From Alphaproteobacteria bacterium (GTDB taxonomy: Bacteria; Pseudomonadota; Alphaproteobacteria; SHNJ01): DNA of 35,003 bases. The position numbers and the translations under genes were made by a program. Where the stretch lies: positions 234,898 through 269,900 of the forward strand of contig SHNJ01000031.1 of NCBI GenBank assembly GCA_004295055.1, in the 5' to 3' direction. Positions within the stretch are counted from its first letter, which is position 1. Each line of letters opens with the position of its first letter. This document shows, piece after piece, positions 2,412-30,721 of this stretch. The notes under the pieces were generated by a model. The model had not been told where the DNA came from and ran no database searches. It saw only the letters and a program-made list of their open reading frames with translations.

Positions 2412-3544
2412 TATACATATCTCCGTTTTGGTTTACGGCCTAGGCCGCATAGGATTTCCGTGGTGCGGGTGCGTGCTTCGCCGGCCAGGTGATTGACCGT
2501 ATATTGATCGTGCAGAATCGCGACCATTTGCCCTGGTTGCACTAAATGCGCCGGAATATCGGTGACATCGACGGTGATTAAATCCATAGACACGCGGCCG
2601 ACGACTGGGCAACGGTAATCGCCAATCCAAATCGTGCCGGCGTTCGACAGGGATCGCATATATCCATCCGAAAACCCGCCACCCAGCGTCATGATGCGGG
2701 TGGTGCGTTCGGTTTTATAGGTGCAGCCGTATCCGATGGTTTTTCCCGCCGGAATTTCTTGCAACTGTAGGACTGGAAATTCGAGCCGCGCCACGGCACG
2801 CATGATGTTGGGCTTATTCGGTTGCGGATTCATGCCGTAAATGCTTGAACCGATGCGCACCATATCGAAATGATAATCCTTGCCCAGGAACGAACCGCTG
2901 GATGCGGCGATGCTGGCTGGGACCTTTGGCAATAACGCAAGGGCCTTGCGGAAATCGTGTAATTGCTGCGCATTCATCGGGTGATTGGCAAGGGCAGGAA
3001 CGGCCAAATGACTCATCACCAATTCTAATTGCAAACCGCTTAATAAATCCGGGTTCTGGGAAAGTTTAGTGACTTCTTCAATCGGCATGCCCAAACGATT
3101 CAACCCGGAATCGACATGAATCGCGACAGGTAGAATTTTTTCAACCCGCGCCGCATAATTGGCGCATTCCGCCAATTGGCCCAAATGATTTACGACTGGG
3201 ATCAAATTATGTTTGTAAATTTCAGGGACTGTGCCGGGAATCGCGCCGTGCAGTACAAAGATTCTGGAATTCGGCAAATGTGGGCGTAAATCCATGCCCT
3301 CTTCGACCCAGGCGACAAAGAAATCTTTGCATCCAACTTCGGATAGGGCGACCGCCACCCGGTCCATGCCCAGCCCATAGGCATCGGCCTTGACCACGCT
3401 GGCGCAAATAGCCGGCGCAACCGTTTTTTGCAGCAATTGATAATTGCTGCGAACGGCATCCAGGTCCACGGTCAATACGGGACCCGCGTTAAACAGCTGA
3501 TTGCTGTTAGAAACCGGAATGATCTTCGCCGTCGGCTGGGGCAT
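2411..3544 (-). CDS. alr: Alanine racemase
   Basis: This PLP enzyme interconverts L- and D-alanine to supply peptidoglycan synthesis. It is 377 residues, a normal length. The PLP lysine is K52 in VKADAYGLG, the catalytic tyrosine Y272 in GYGCTY, the arginine contacting the PLP pyridine nitrogen R230 in FDMVRIG, and the MD pair 320-321. Two substrate-entryway tyrosines of characterised enzymes (Tyr284 and Tyr354 in Geobacillus numbering) appear as F291 and T362 in a by-eye alignment. The gene overlaps the 3' end of dnaB by 38 nt if the ATG at 3542-3544 is used. No strong ribosome binding site is visible, so a non-ATG start further in is possible. Confidence 0.93.
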   Translation of the reverse strand: MPQPTAKIIPVSNSNQLFNAGPVLTVDLDAVRSNYQLLQKTVAPAICASVVKADAYGLGMDRVAVALSEVGCKDFFVAWVEEGMDLRPHLPNSRIFVLHGAIPGTVPEIYKHNLIPVVNHLGQLAECANYAARVEKILPVAIHVDSGLNRLGMPIEEVTKLSQNPDLLSGLQLELVMSHLAVPALANHPMNAQQLHDFRKALALLPKVPASIAASSGSFLGKDYHFDMVRIGSSIYGMNPQPNKPNIMRAVARLEFPVLQLQEIPAGKTIGYGCTYKTERTTRIMTLGGGFSDGYMRSLSNAGTIWIGDYRCPVVGRVSMDLITVDVTDIPAHLVQPGQMVAILHDQYTVNHLAGEARTRTTEILCGLGRKPKRRYV

Positions 3545-5093: not shown

Positions 5094-5166
5094 GGCCGGG
5101 GTATAGGCCGAAGAATATAGGTAAATGTGAGAATGGGGGATAAGTGTTGAAGAAGGGTAGTAGGGT

Positions 5167-5220
5167 ATAGAGTAGTAGGGTAATAGGGGAATATTTCTTC
5201 CCTATTACCCTATACGCTAT
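5167..5220. repeat. Intergenic inverted repeat between rplI and dnaB
   Basis: Arms at about 5167-5191 and 5198-5220 are complementary with one mismatch and two single-base indels, around the loop TATTTC. The arms consist of roughly 8-bp units built on TAGGG(T/G)A, and a further partial unit lies at 5153-5166. The hairpin could attenuate transcription between rplI and dnaB, although no T-run follows it on the minus strand. Its periodic arm design resembles the elements at 28517-28589 and 30643-30721. Confidence 0.7.
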
Positions 5221-5228
5221 TGACCTAG

Positions 5229-26681: not shown

Positions 26682-26814
26682 CCGGCGAATCTAGCCTTTT
26701 TGCATCGCTTTTTCCAGTATTTACAAATATTTGTTCACAGGCCTGGATTGCGCTGAAATTTTTCGTTATCTTAAGAGAAATTCTCTAAAACCCTCTATTT
26801 CCAAAGGATTCCTC

Positions 26815-28314
26815 ATGAAAATCGCTTTTGCCGGTTTAGGCACCCCCGATCATGGCGCTTATGTCGTTGGCGTATACGAAGGCAAAGGCCTTTCCCCGTC
26901 CGCAACCAAAATCGACAAGGACCAAAAAGGCCTGGTGAAACGCGCGATGGAGGCGAGCAAATTTACCGGTAAACGGAATCAGTTTTTAACCATACTTGCG
27001 CCGTCCGGCATGAAAGCCAGCCAGATCGTATTGATGGGTCTGGGCAAACCGGAAGAATTGACCGCGTTTCAGGTGGAAGCGCTGGGTGGAAATCTAATCG
27101 GCTATTTGGCGAAAAATCCGGATAAATCGGTATCGGTGGCGATTGACGGATTTGCCAAAGCGAAAATGGATGCCGGCAAAATGGCGGCGCATTTTGCAAT
27201 CGGCGCCCAGCTTCGTTCTTACCGGTTCGATAAATATCGTACCAAGGACAAACCCGAAGACAAACCGGCGTTGCAAAATTTAAATGTCATGTCGGGCAAA
27301 TCGGCTGGCGCAAAATCGCATTTCGAAACATTATCCAAAATCGCCGATGGCGTGAATTTCACCCGGAATTTAGTGAACGAGCCGCCAAATGTGCTTTATC
27401 CGGAAAGCTTTGCCGTGGAAATCAAGAAGTTGACCAAGTTAGGCATCAAAGTTGAAGTATTGGATGAGAAGCAAATCAAAGCCTTGAAAATGGGCGCATT
27501 GCTTGGCGTGGCGCAGGGCAGCGTACGTCCGGCGCGCGTTGCGATTATGCAGTATAACGGCGCAAAATCCAAAGGCAAAGCCGGGCCGATTGCCTTGGTC
27601 GGCAAAGGGGTCACCTTTGACACTGGCGGTATTTCGATCAAACCCGCCGCCGGGATGGAAGAAATGAAATGGGATATGGCCGGGGCCGGGGCCGTGGTTG
27701 GAACGATGATGGCGCTGGCCGGGCGCAAGGCCAAGGTGAATGTGGTCGGTATCGTGGGTCTGGTTGAAAATATGCCCGATGGCAACGCGCAGCGTCCGGG
27801 CGATATTGTAACCTCCATGTCGGGCCAAACCGTCGAAGTGTTGAATACCGATGCCGAAGGGCGGATGGTGTTGTGTGATATCATGTGGCATGTGCAGCAG
27901 AAATTTAAACCGAGCGTGATGGTGGATCTGGCCACGTTGACCGGCGCCATTCTGGTGGCGTTGGGTCATGAATTCGCCGGGCTGTTCAGCAACGACGACG
28001 GATTGTCCAAACAATTGACGGCTTCAGGCGAAGCGGTGGGCGAGCGTTTATGGCGTATGCCGATGTGCGAAGCCTATGACCGCGAGTTGGATGGATTCCA
28101 ATCCGATTTGAAACATATCGGCAATGGCCGCGAGGCAGGCAGCGCCACGGCAGCCCATTATCTCGGCCGGTTCGTGCAAAAAGGCGTCAAATGGGCGCAT
28201 CTCGATATCGCTGGAACCGCCTGGTCGAAAAAGGACAATGGCGTCACACCCAAAGGCGCATCGGCATACGGCGTGCGTTTATTGAACCAATGGATCGCGG
28301 ATAATTTCGAGTAG
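26815..28314 (+). CDS. pepA: Leucyl aminopeptidase (M17 family)
   Basis: This cytoplasmic metallo-aminopeptidase removes N-terminal residues from peptides. It has 499 residues from the ATG at 26815. The M17 motifs are clear: GKGVTFDTGG (263-272, with metal-ligand K264 and D269 by family analogy) and the signature NTDAEGR (344-350). AAGGA lies 6 nt before the ATG. A longer reading frame starts at a TTG at 26731, but its extra 28 residues are not conserved in character. It is followed by an intergenic repeat cluster. Confidence 0.95.
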   Translation: MKIAFAGLGTPDHGAYVVGVYEGKGLSPSATKIDKDQKGLVKRAMEASKFTGKRNQFLTILAPSGMKASQIVLMGLGKPEELTAFQVEALGGNLIGYLAKNPDKSVSVAIDGFAKAKMDAGKMAAHFAIGAQLRSYRFDKYRTKDKPEDKPALQNLNVMSGKSAGAKSHFETLSKIADGVNFTRNLVNEPPNVLYPESFAVEIKKLTKLGIKVEVLDEKQIKALKMGALLGVAQGSVRPARVAIMQYNGAKSKGKAGPIALVGKGVTFDTGGISIKPAAGMEEMKWDMAGAGAVVGTMMALAGRKAKVNVVGIVGLVENMPDGNAQRPGDIVTSMSGQTVEVLNTDAEGRMVLCDIMWHVQQKFKPSVMVDLATLTGAILVALGHEFAGLFSNDDGLSKQLTASGEAVGERLWRMPMCEAYDRELDGFQSDLKHIGNGREAGSATAAHYLGRFVQKGVKWAHLDIAGTAWSKKDNGVTPKGASAYGVRLLNQWIADNFE

Positions 28315-28328
28315 TGGTGTTTAAAATT

Positions 28329-28462
28329 CCCCTCCCTTTGGGAGGGGGTAGGGGGAGGGTTAGGCAAGCGGTTTGGCTTATTGATGAAACTGAATTTATC
28401 TCTACCGCGCCTATCCCCCTCTGCAAACGCTGTCGCATTTGCGCCTCCCCCAAAGGGGGAGG
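28329..28462. repeat. Pair of GC-rich hairpins downstream of pepA
   Basis: CCCCTCCC-TTT-GGGAGGGG (28329-28347) and CCTCCCCC-AAA-GGGGGAGG (28444-28462) are perfect hairpins about 100 nt apart. They resemble the CCCTCCC/GGGAGGG palindromes at 13-167 and 19373-19397, in a similar nested layout. An open frame that runs through them is probably not a gene. Either could help end pepA transcription, though no T-run follows. Confidence 0.7.
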
Positions 28463-28516
28463 AATAACCCCCTTGCATTTCAGGCCTTTTCGCTTTATAA
28501 GCACCGCAGCAATTAT

Positions 28517-28600
28517 AGGTTTCAGGTTCCAGGTATTAGGTGTCAAAAACAAACTTAACCTGATACCGGAAACCTGGTACCTGACACCTTTTTTATTTTG
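28517..28600 (+). repeat. Heptad-periodic inverted repeat upstream of ndk
   Basis: The left arm (28517-28544) is four tandem heptads AGGTNNN; the right arm (28562-28589) is the inverted equivalent NNNACC(T/G) four times. The arms pair with about six mismatches in 29. The right arm is followed by TTTTTTATTTT, so the structure may also work as an intrinsic terminator ahead of ndk. No gene lies between pepA and ndk. Confidence 0.75.
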
Positions 28601-28609
28601 AGGGACAAA

Positions 28610-29038
28610 ATGGCTATGGCTATCGAACGTACTTTTTCTATTCTGAAACCGGATGCAACCCGCCGCAATTTGACTGGCAAAATCAACGCCAAGATCGAAG
28701 ATGCCGGCCTGCGCATTATCGCGCAAAAACGCATCCAAATGACCCAAGCGCAAGCGGAAGCATTTTACGGCGTGCATAAAGAACGCCCATTCTTCAAAGA
28801 TTTGTGCAAATTCATGACCTCGGGCCCCGTAGTGGTTCAAGTATTGGAAGGCGACAATGCCGTTGCCAAATACCGCGAAGTCATGGGCGCAACCAATCCA
28901 GCCAACGCCAATCCAGGCACAATCCGCAAAGAATTCGCCGAATCGATCGAAGCGAATTCGGTGCACGGTTCCGATTCCTTGGATAACGCGAAAATTGAAA
29001 TTAGCCATTTTTTCAAGAACGACGAAATCGTCGGCTAA
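28610..29038 (+). CDS. ndk: Nucleoside diphosphate kinase
   Basis: It transfers the gamma-phosphate of ATP to nucleoside diphosphates through a phospho-histidine. It has 142 residues from the ATG at 28610, with [12 protein letters not shown] at the N-terminus and the active-site H119 in [13 protein letters not shown] lies 5 nt before this ATG. A second ATG at 28616 gives the more usual MAIERTFSI start of 140 residues and is also plausible. A strong terminator follows. Confidence 0.97.
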
Positions 29039-30018: not shown

Positions 30019-30681
30019 TTAACTATTTACCACAACTTTATTGCCTGTCATCTGAATTCTTCCTTCTGACAGCAATTTCAGCGCCATGGGGTAACACCGA
30101 TGCTCCGCCGCCAATACCCGCGCCGCCAGGGTTTGTTCATCATCGTCAGGCAAAACGGGCACAGATTGTTGCAATATAATCGGGCCTTCATCCATTTCGG
30201 CGGTTACAAAATGCACCGTGCAGCCATGATGGGCATCGCCGGCGGCAAGGGCGCGTTTGTGCGTATCGAGCCCTTTATGGTTCGGCAGTAACGATGGATG
30301 AATATTGATTAATTTATTTTTCCAAGTCTCGCAAAATTCCGCGCTTAGTAACCGCATGAAACCGGCAAGGCATACAAGATCGATTTTATTGGCACGCAAA
30401 ATTTCGGTGATCTTGGCGTCATATTCGCGCCGGTCTTTATATCCTTTGTGCGGCAGAATTTCAGTTTTAACTTTGTATTGTTTGGCGATTTCCAAACCCG
30501 GCGCATCGGCGATATTCGATAAAACCAACGCAATTTTTGCCTGATCGATTTCGATATCGGGAATTTCCCCGGCACAACCGCGGAGCAGGGCATGCATGTT
30601 GCTGCCCCGGCCAGAGATCAAAATTGCCACACGCAATTTCGAGGGTTCTGGGTTCCGGGTTTTGGGTTTTGGGCTGGACAT
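30019..30681 (-). CDS. purN: Phosphoribosylglycinamide formyltransferase
   Basis: This is the folate-dependent GAR transformylase of purine synthesis. It has 220 residues from the ATG at 30679-30681. The core begins at KLRVAILISGRGSN (from residue 15) and carries NIHPSLLPNHKG with the catalytic histidine, and VHFVTAEMDEGPI. Residues 2-14 (SSPKPKTRNPEPS) are encoded by a heptad repeat arm (30643-30673) and have no counterpart in the family. The true start might instead be a TTG or GTG near residue 15. It lies 44 nt downstream of purM, its usual partner. Confidence 0.93.
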   Translation of the reverse strand: MSSPKPKTRNPEPSKLRVAILISGRGSNMHALLRGCAGEIPDIEIDQAKIALVLSNIADAPGLEIAKQYKVKTEILPHKGYKDRREYDAKITEILRANKIDLVCLAGFMRLLSAEFCETWKNKLINIHPSLLPNHKGLDTHKRALAAGDAHHGCTVHFVTAEMDEGPIILQQSVPVLPDDDEQTLAARVLAAEHRCYPMALKLLSEGRIQMTGNKVVVNS

Positions 30682-30721
30682 GGCTTAAATCCCAAACCCC
30701 AAACCCCAAACCCCAATACCC
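30643..30721. repeat. Telomere-like heptad inverted repeat at purM-purN junction
   Basis: The left arm is four GGGTTNN heptads plus GGG (30643-30673). The right arm is three CCCAAAC heptads plus CCCAATACCC (30691-30721). They form an inverted repeat around a 17-nt loop containing the purN start codon. The left arm lies within the purN reading frame; the right arm fills the purM-purN gap. Confidence 0.85.

Follow-up and report, generated by a model that had tools for sequence, protein, structure and literature searches.

The short tandem heptanucleotide repeats (STRRs) of cyanobacteria are direct arrays, and work by Vioque in 1997 is said to have placed STRR sequences inside an RNA gene as well. 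We know of no description of a gene-bearing STRR form. REP/BIME elements have a GTAG-type hairpin and a RAYT protein (a Y1 transposase) as a partner, and the ring protein TRAP recognizes short NAG motifs set at regular intervals in RNA. Intervening sequences (IVSs) of rRNA are excised by RNase III and were long ago proposed to be mobile or selfish elements; that of Coxiella burnetii carries tandem GACAGAT heptamers just upstream of an S23 open reading frame (PMC4990558). In the multicopy repeat classes 1–3 of Geobacter metallireducens, tandem units of 7 or 8 bases form inverted pairs that are variably spaced, and class 3 has five heptads (PMC2700814). Intergenic heptads of the types GGGAATC and GGGGAYT, with four full units preferred, occur in Xanthomonas and Nostoc, and each Xanthomonas genome holds 70–75 convergent inverted heptad pairs (PMC4692102).

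We analyzed a 35,003-nucleotide stretch (the window) of an alphaproteobacterial genome of 1.95 Mb in 37 contigs (G000). Positions 28517–28589 of the window form an inverted pair of tandem heptad arms with the unit NGGT-D-Y-C. The left arm (28517–28544, plus strand) has four cores and reads AGGTTTC AGGTTCC AGGTATT AGGTGTC. A 13-bp spacer without a gene (28545–28557) separates it from the right arm (28558–28589, minus strand), which has five cores in four heptads plus AGGT and reads AGGTGTC AGGTACC AGGTTTC CGGTATC AGGT. Four consecutive complete NGGTNYC units lie in a single frame on each strand, and none of 2000 dinucleotide-preserving shuffles of 28501–28610 reproduces four units on both strands. 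The inverted heptad arms proposed in an earlier sequence-only reading of this DNA are thus confirmed. Each arm had been described there as four AGGTNNN 7-mers; the unit is better given as NGGT-D-Y-C, and a fifth core usually closes the arms of this family, as it does on the right but not on the left here. As RNA, the element folds at −33.8 kcal/mol (z −6.4) and the other strand at −31.3 kcal/mol (z −5.0). No Rfam family matches the window at gathering score. A run of T residues follows the element at 28590, and a partial terminator function is possible.

We think it quite probable that the window element derives from a mobile hairpin element that encodes an S23 protein (PF05635/TIGR02436), of which it would be a short, MITE-like copy without the gene. 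A full copy of 433 bp is present on contig C36 of the same genome (L098, 2545–2977), where an intact 122-residue gene occupies the place between NGGTDYC arms that is taken by the short spacer in the window. The two copies have the same heptad core. The C36 protein matches TIGR02436 ("four helix bundle protein"; E 5e-34) and PF05635 ("23S rRNA-intervening sequence protein"; E 2e-37). Exactly two S23-family genes exist in the genome, and the other one, on contig C24 between neighbors that we take to be murB and murC, is flanked by arms of a different heptad, GGGTTNN. Both S23 genes therefore lie between heptad arms, one for each family, so that each of the two families has one gene-bearing copy and its remaining copies are short. 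That the arms belong to an element with an S23 gene, and that the short copies are gene-less derivatives of it, had escaped the sequence-only reading.

The second family is represented in the window by an element between purM and purN (30643–30721), whose GGGTTNN arms lie at 30643–30673 and 30687–30721. As previously proposed, it follows the plan of the 28517–28589 element with a different core. The start of PurN lies within this element (30643–30681), so translation of the arm at 30643–30673 gives the protein a proline-rich tail at its N terminus, MSSPKPKTRNPEPSK. A pattern for the GGGTT family gave 50 matches compared with 61 for the reversed control, which is uninformative here because it also picks up the repeats of the family itself; no copy number is claimed beyond the places named here. 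The element between rplI and dnaB (5150–5221) is more irregular, with 7- and 8-base units of the TAGGGTA type; the looser likeness noted earlier stands, but the units are not 8-mers only. It resembles the TAGSGTA family of the sister genome G001, for which we found 65 pattern matches in G001, 5 in the source genome and 0 for the control, and which has a gene-bearing copy in G001 (L122). The suggestion of several families of one architecture is therefore well founded: different cores occur in one genome, are multicopy and differ between relatives.

A genome-wide search with AGGTNNNAGGTNNNAGGT yielded 21 matches compared with 1 for the reversed control, and a looser heptad pattern yielded 108 compared with 30. 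When matches were merged by place, they resolved into 20 dispersed paired elements of two inverted arms each, including the window copy. This is the count that the sequence-only reading had called for, and its alternative of single-copy elements lacking periodicity fails. A one-sided AGGTACT array on contig C34 (L097, ~3024–3054) has no partner arm and was dropped from the family. The spacers of the 20 elements range from almost nothing to ~370 bp. Exactly five cores are present in 34 of the 40 arms; two arms have three, two have six and two have four, the left arm of the window element being one of the last. A gene-less copy lies at the S10–L3 junction in L096, and single paired AGGTNYC elements were found in L102 (G057) and L101 (G001). 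G057 is a genome of another family with no listed TIGR02436 match, and its element is placed between a TGA stop codon and an ATG that overlaps.

At D, the base that follows GGT, we found A, G and T but C in none of 160 units. Between paired units of the two arms, D is identical in 17 of 80 cases, whereas ~27 are expected from composition. Judged by sequence, a conserved core with a free spacer base is the pattern of a binding site and not of a perfectly paired stem, which makes the arms candidate binding sites. With simple, crude gene calls in this compact genome, 15 of the 20 elements start no more than 6 bp from a stop codon, and tolerance or targeting at gene ends is therefore likely.

The window element is located between two genes that we named from their sequences: upstream, what we take to be a pepA-type leucyl aminopeptidase gene (26731–28314, plus strand) and downstream, presumably, the nucleoside diphosphate kinase gene ndk (28610–29035, plus strand). 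The ndk protein has a 78% identical counterpart in G001, and the syntenic pepA–ndk junction of that genome does not contain the element. A comparison for presence or absence, of the kind proposed in the sequence-only reading but made with a sister genome, finds the locus occupied in one relative and unoccupied in the other. The sequences AATAACCCC and TTATAAGCA, which lie upstream of the element, are retained at the empty junction. A promoter-like TTGCAT-17-TATAAG was read by eye just upstream of the element (28473–28501, plus strand), where an automatic promoter scan listed none. This promoter-like sequence and the retention of TTATAAGCA in the empty sister locus suggest that the element probably resides in the 5′ leader of ndk, and the hairpin is probably a tolerated passenger there. 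A second, unrelated inverted repeat (CCCCTCCCTTTGGGAGGGGG ... CCTCCCCCAAAGGGGGAGG) occupies 28328–28470 between pepA and the heptad element, and it too is missing from the G001 junction.

Heptad pairs at such places might be RNA devices kept by the host, acting within operons as transcript-end or RNase III processing hairpins. Their hairpins are indeed stable (z −6.4 for the window element and −7.7 for L081), most copies are at gene junctions, and heptads favor the vicinity of stop codons between aligned genes according to Rehm et al. (PMC4692102). However, the sister locus in G001 does without the element, and an intrinsic terminator scan of 28300–28800 found none. Moreover, the absence of D co-variation between arms indicates that perfect pairing is not the feature being retained. 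We consider host-kept devices an unlikely explanation.

On plasmids of the Nostoc group, a given site can be seen both with and without the element, and two sites have clean empty versions. At the first, AAAAAGTAAT is joined directly to TAACAAA in the empty version, whereas the occupied version consists of AAAAAGTAAT, the element and GTAATTAACAAA. One 5-bp direct repeat is found at the stop codon of each site, GTAAT or TTCTA, and TTCTA is present at both ends of the second. In two plasmids of one strain (L242 and L248), elements reside at different junctions of the same three-gene operon, and each plasmid is nearly the empty site of the other. A third plasmid site exists in three states, with the full element (L261, L267), with a short copy that lacks the gene (L266) and empty (L264, L265), and shows no clean duplication. 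For the sites in L245 and L250, empty relatives exist whose flanks are too divergent for exact junctions, and the plasmid relatives searched around L241 included no empty version. What L252 has at the L249 site is a broken remnant and not a clean short copy.

The 5-bp repeats at two plasmid insertions, and the fact that the element comes without an enzyme, are what might be expected if these were MITEs of an ordinary DDE, HUH or serine transposase with S23 merely as cargo. End-to-end repeats of at least 5 bp occur at only 6 of 73 loci, however, compared with ~8 in permuted pairs. Because there is no excess of end repeats over these 73 elements, the 5-bp duplication does not appear to be general, and target-site duplication was set aside as a general rule. 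Furthermore, the termini of the elements are completely different and could not be read by any single transposase, and S23 is the sole constant gene. No recombinase or transposase is encoded by the element: its gene-bearing copy encodes S23, so its terminal repeats are not those of a transposon with a transposase of its own. Dependence on some ordinary transposase seems rather improbable.

A different possibility is that heptad pairs are immobile and serve as fixed sites at which a nucleoid protein or a chromosomal regulator binds. The regularity of the cores and the freedom of the spacer bases do resemble what is seen in protein sites, and paired inverted tandem sites with variable spacing have been read as regulator sites in G. 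metallireducens (PMC2700814). Such sites would not be expected to enclose a gene, to be empty in relatives (cleanly so on plasmids) or to have different cores in neighboring families of one genome. Also, the 15 of 20 copies noted above adjoin stop codons, by crude gene calls, and not promoters. Immobile sites of this kind are quite unlikely to account for the data, and we continue with the mobile S23 element as the preferred reading.

Arms were also looked for around S23 genes elsewhere. Four sets were assembled: a class-wide profile search with 19 matches in 14 of 289 genomes, the best 80 of 555 relatives from a GTDB contig scan, 34 viral contigs, and 13 loci chosen for examination from 34 plasmid records. 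The arm test used the best summed period score of two 220-bp flanks, with periods of 4 to 12 and a threshold of 18. This threshold was set after the contig set had been inspected and was subsequently applied to the viral, plasmid and Avd sets; several plasmid arms had by then been read by eye, and Avd scores had been seen.

Arms of period 7 or 8 flank 60 of the best 80 contig loci (the other 20 are below threshold), 16 of 18 class-wide loci (L117 omitted; 16 of 19 at worst), 27 of 34 viral-contig loci and 13 of 13 chosen plasmid loci. The latter include all 12 chosen cyanobacterial loci, which are flanked by heptad or octad arms. Among the periods scored, no S23 locus passes with any other than 7 or 8. 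In control window pairs 500–1345 bp away, 20 of 397 pass, some of which may hold neighboring copies, and 6 more pass with other periods. The homologous Avd genes of diversity-generating retroelements (DGRs), which are the strongest negative control, have no heptad arms in the same flank test (0 of 15). Six weak matches to the Avd model do carry arms (L292, L295, L296, L299, L300 and L301) and are probably S23 genes; L300, the one that was checked, is an S23 gene (PF05635 E 3e-33).

The core sequence varies from element to element. In three other S23 genomes, solitary matches to the genome's own core number 23 (control 0), 73 (control 16) and 102 (control 0). No S23 match occurs in 50,697 phage records, and the 34 viral-labeled contigs that carry S23 genes may be host DNA. 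Some S23 elements are situated at operon junctions, between genes that we read as sdhA and sdhB (L198, L206) or cas6 and cas4 (L244, L245), and one in Ramlibacter (L139) lies between genes read as carA and carB. In Anabaena sp. 90 (L245, 2100–2500), dozens of GACAGGT-type units precede the S23 gene as the result of the expansion of one arm.

Both arms are clear at 61 of 97 scored loci, and in 55 of these the right arm is of the reverse complement type of the left. The six direct pairs (L155, L178, L186, L193, L197, L199) are perhaps in some cases adjacent elements. Similarity between matched arms is 0.49, compared with a mean of 0.37 and a maximum of 0.38 in 200 permuted sets. A conserved AG is present in 84 of 122 arms, and the inward-read strand is mostly purine-rich. 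Outside the source genome, the most common number of cores per arm is five (36 of 127), and 90 of 127 arms have four to six; the spread is broad, and the count is approximate, since counting with one mismatch inflates run lengths; the figure from the source genome is the better one.

Heptads could also be plain tandem slippage or G-quadruplex repeats, with their association with S23 a by-product. Unit number is highly variable in some arms (L136, L178, L244), as slippage would produce, and G-rich heptads form quadruplexes in vitro (PMC4692102). But every passing S23 locus has a period of 7 or 8 and none has 5, 6 or 9, the arms are inverted and share a core far above permuted pairs, Avd genes have no arms, and many cores lack GGG. 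An origin by slippage or quadruplex formation is highly improbable.

Three observations point to specific recognition of each arm by its S23 protein. The first is the matching of arms described above. The second is that the cores are more alike the closer the S23 proteins are to each other, also between phyla. This correlation is weak (Mantel r 0.15, a value reached in 8 of 5000 permutations; n = 45) and was computed on period-7 loci with two clear, inverted arms. For S23 pairs at 55–65% identity, mean core similarity is 0.50 compared with 0.41. Shared cores include AGGATTN, found both in a betaproteobacterium and in a Bacteroidota MAG, and TAGTGGT, which an acidobacterium has in common with Thiohalocapsa. 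The third is that period 7 or 8 clusters on the S23 protein tree, with 6 changes compared with a shuffled mean of 9.5 and 0–1 of 500 shuffles as low, on a tree with many unresolved branches from which 6 of 97 proteins are missing.

The AlphaFold model of the C36 protein has a pLDDT of 94.8 and most resembles 2gsc (TM 0.87) and 2rld, followed by Avd (4dwl) and the DGR ribonucleoprotein complexes 8ub7 and 8ube. The 2gsc and 2rld crystals contain five chains each, and the Xanthomonas S23 protein is a homopentameric torus (PMC4990558). Five is also the usual number of cores per arm in the source genome, so one core may be bound per subunit, with the nucleic acid most simply wrapped single-stranded around the ring, as in TRAP. 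The arms are then probably binding sites for the S23 pentamer.

A mechanism consistent with these findings can be proposed. The full form would comprise an arm of about five heptad cores, a gene for the four-helix-bundle S23 protein and an inverted arm of the same heptad. S23 would form a pentameric ring whose subunits each hold a single core on the purine-rich strand of an arm, the bound form being RNA or single-stranded DNA with five cores at a pitch of 7 or 8 nt. Pairing of the arms would give an imperfect hairpin, which RNase III could cut from transcripts as it does the rRNA version, and this would make insertion between the genes of an operon tolerable. The complex of S23 and arm might be the unit that is copied or inserted, with the host or another element providing the enzyme that cuts the strand, and short copies consisting only of arms could ride along. 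Only 6 of 12 S23 genomes have a reverse transcriptase, so a route through this enzyme alone is not general, and dependence on it was rejected as a general rule. Besides this, the lack of an encoded recombinase and of a general target-site duplication, the 20 contig loci below threshold, the six direct arm pairs, the spread of core counts elsewhere and the weakness of the protein–core correlation tell against the mobile S23 reading. The source genome has one reverse transcriptase-like gene (G000:C6:83573-84082).

A broader proposal is that S23 proteins, orphans since their discovery in rRNA IVSs, are TRAP-like pentameric single-strand readers of five purine-rich cores at a 7- or 8-nt pitch and, at the same time, the core of a pan-bacterial, recombinase-free class of mobile hairpins that has rRNA IVSs, Geobacter sites, Xanthomonas heptads and perhaps cyanobacterial STRRs as members or relics. 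We advance this tentatively: it could well be true, but we stop just short of favoring it. The S23 element as read here, with or without this extension, joins separate puzzles, namely, the role of the S23/IVS protein, the spread of rRNA intervening sequences, and the intergenic inverted heptamer arrays of unrelated bacteria. It also leads to the sharp prediction that one pentamer binds five cores and that the core is specific to each element, and inverted arms of period 7 or 8 around a PF05635 gene offer an annotation rule for many small mobile elements.

Among known systems, the TRAP ring also has one motif per subunit, as proposed for S23, but its fold is unrelated and it has eleven subunits, so the likeness is an analogy only. 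The GTAG-type hairpin of REP/BIME elements differs by eye from the window hairpin. Avd, the DGR accessory protein, has the fold of S23 (4dwl, TM 0.75) with a weak profile match (E 4e-11) and is part of a solved RNA–protein complex (8ub7), but its genes have no heptad arms. A DGR/Avd system was rejected as an identity for the element, given the 6 of 12 genomes with reverse transcriptase and the far higher score of S23 on its own model than on that of Avd. The cyanobacterial STRRs, which we compared by description, share tandem heptanucleotides and multiple copies with the window family. This resemblance, also drawn in the sequence-only reading, may be real in view of the heptad or octad arms at the 12 chosen cyanobacterial plasmid loci, but it does not mark a cyanobacterial trait.

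The Geobacter and Xanthomonas paired repeats look like the same thing as the S23 arms, judged by their arrangement. The former were interpreted as sites of global regulators (IHF/HU), unlike the S23 reading given here (PMC2700814, in the part cited). The Xanthomonas heptads were explained by G-quadruplexes, and the sections of that report used here draw no link to S23 (PMC4692102); the S23 structure 2gsc comes from Xanthomonas. In the open-access literature, to which the search was confined with most subscription journals outside its scope, we found no paper that links S23 genes to heptad arms. The closest relative is the rRNA IVS with an S23 open reading frame, as in C. burnetii, which shares the protein family, hairpin-forming ends and a size of ~430 nt, compared with 433 bp for the C36 copy (PMC4990558). 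IVSs reside in rRNA, however, whereas the S23 elements described here are found between protein genes on chromosomes and plasmids. They have diverse cores and short gene-less copies, while the heptamers of the IVS are treated as a local feature in the portion of the source consulted (PMC4990558).
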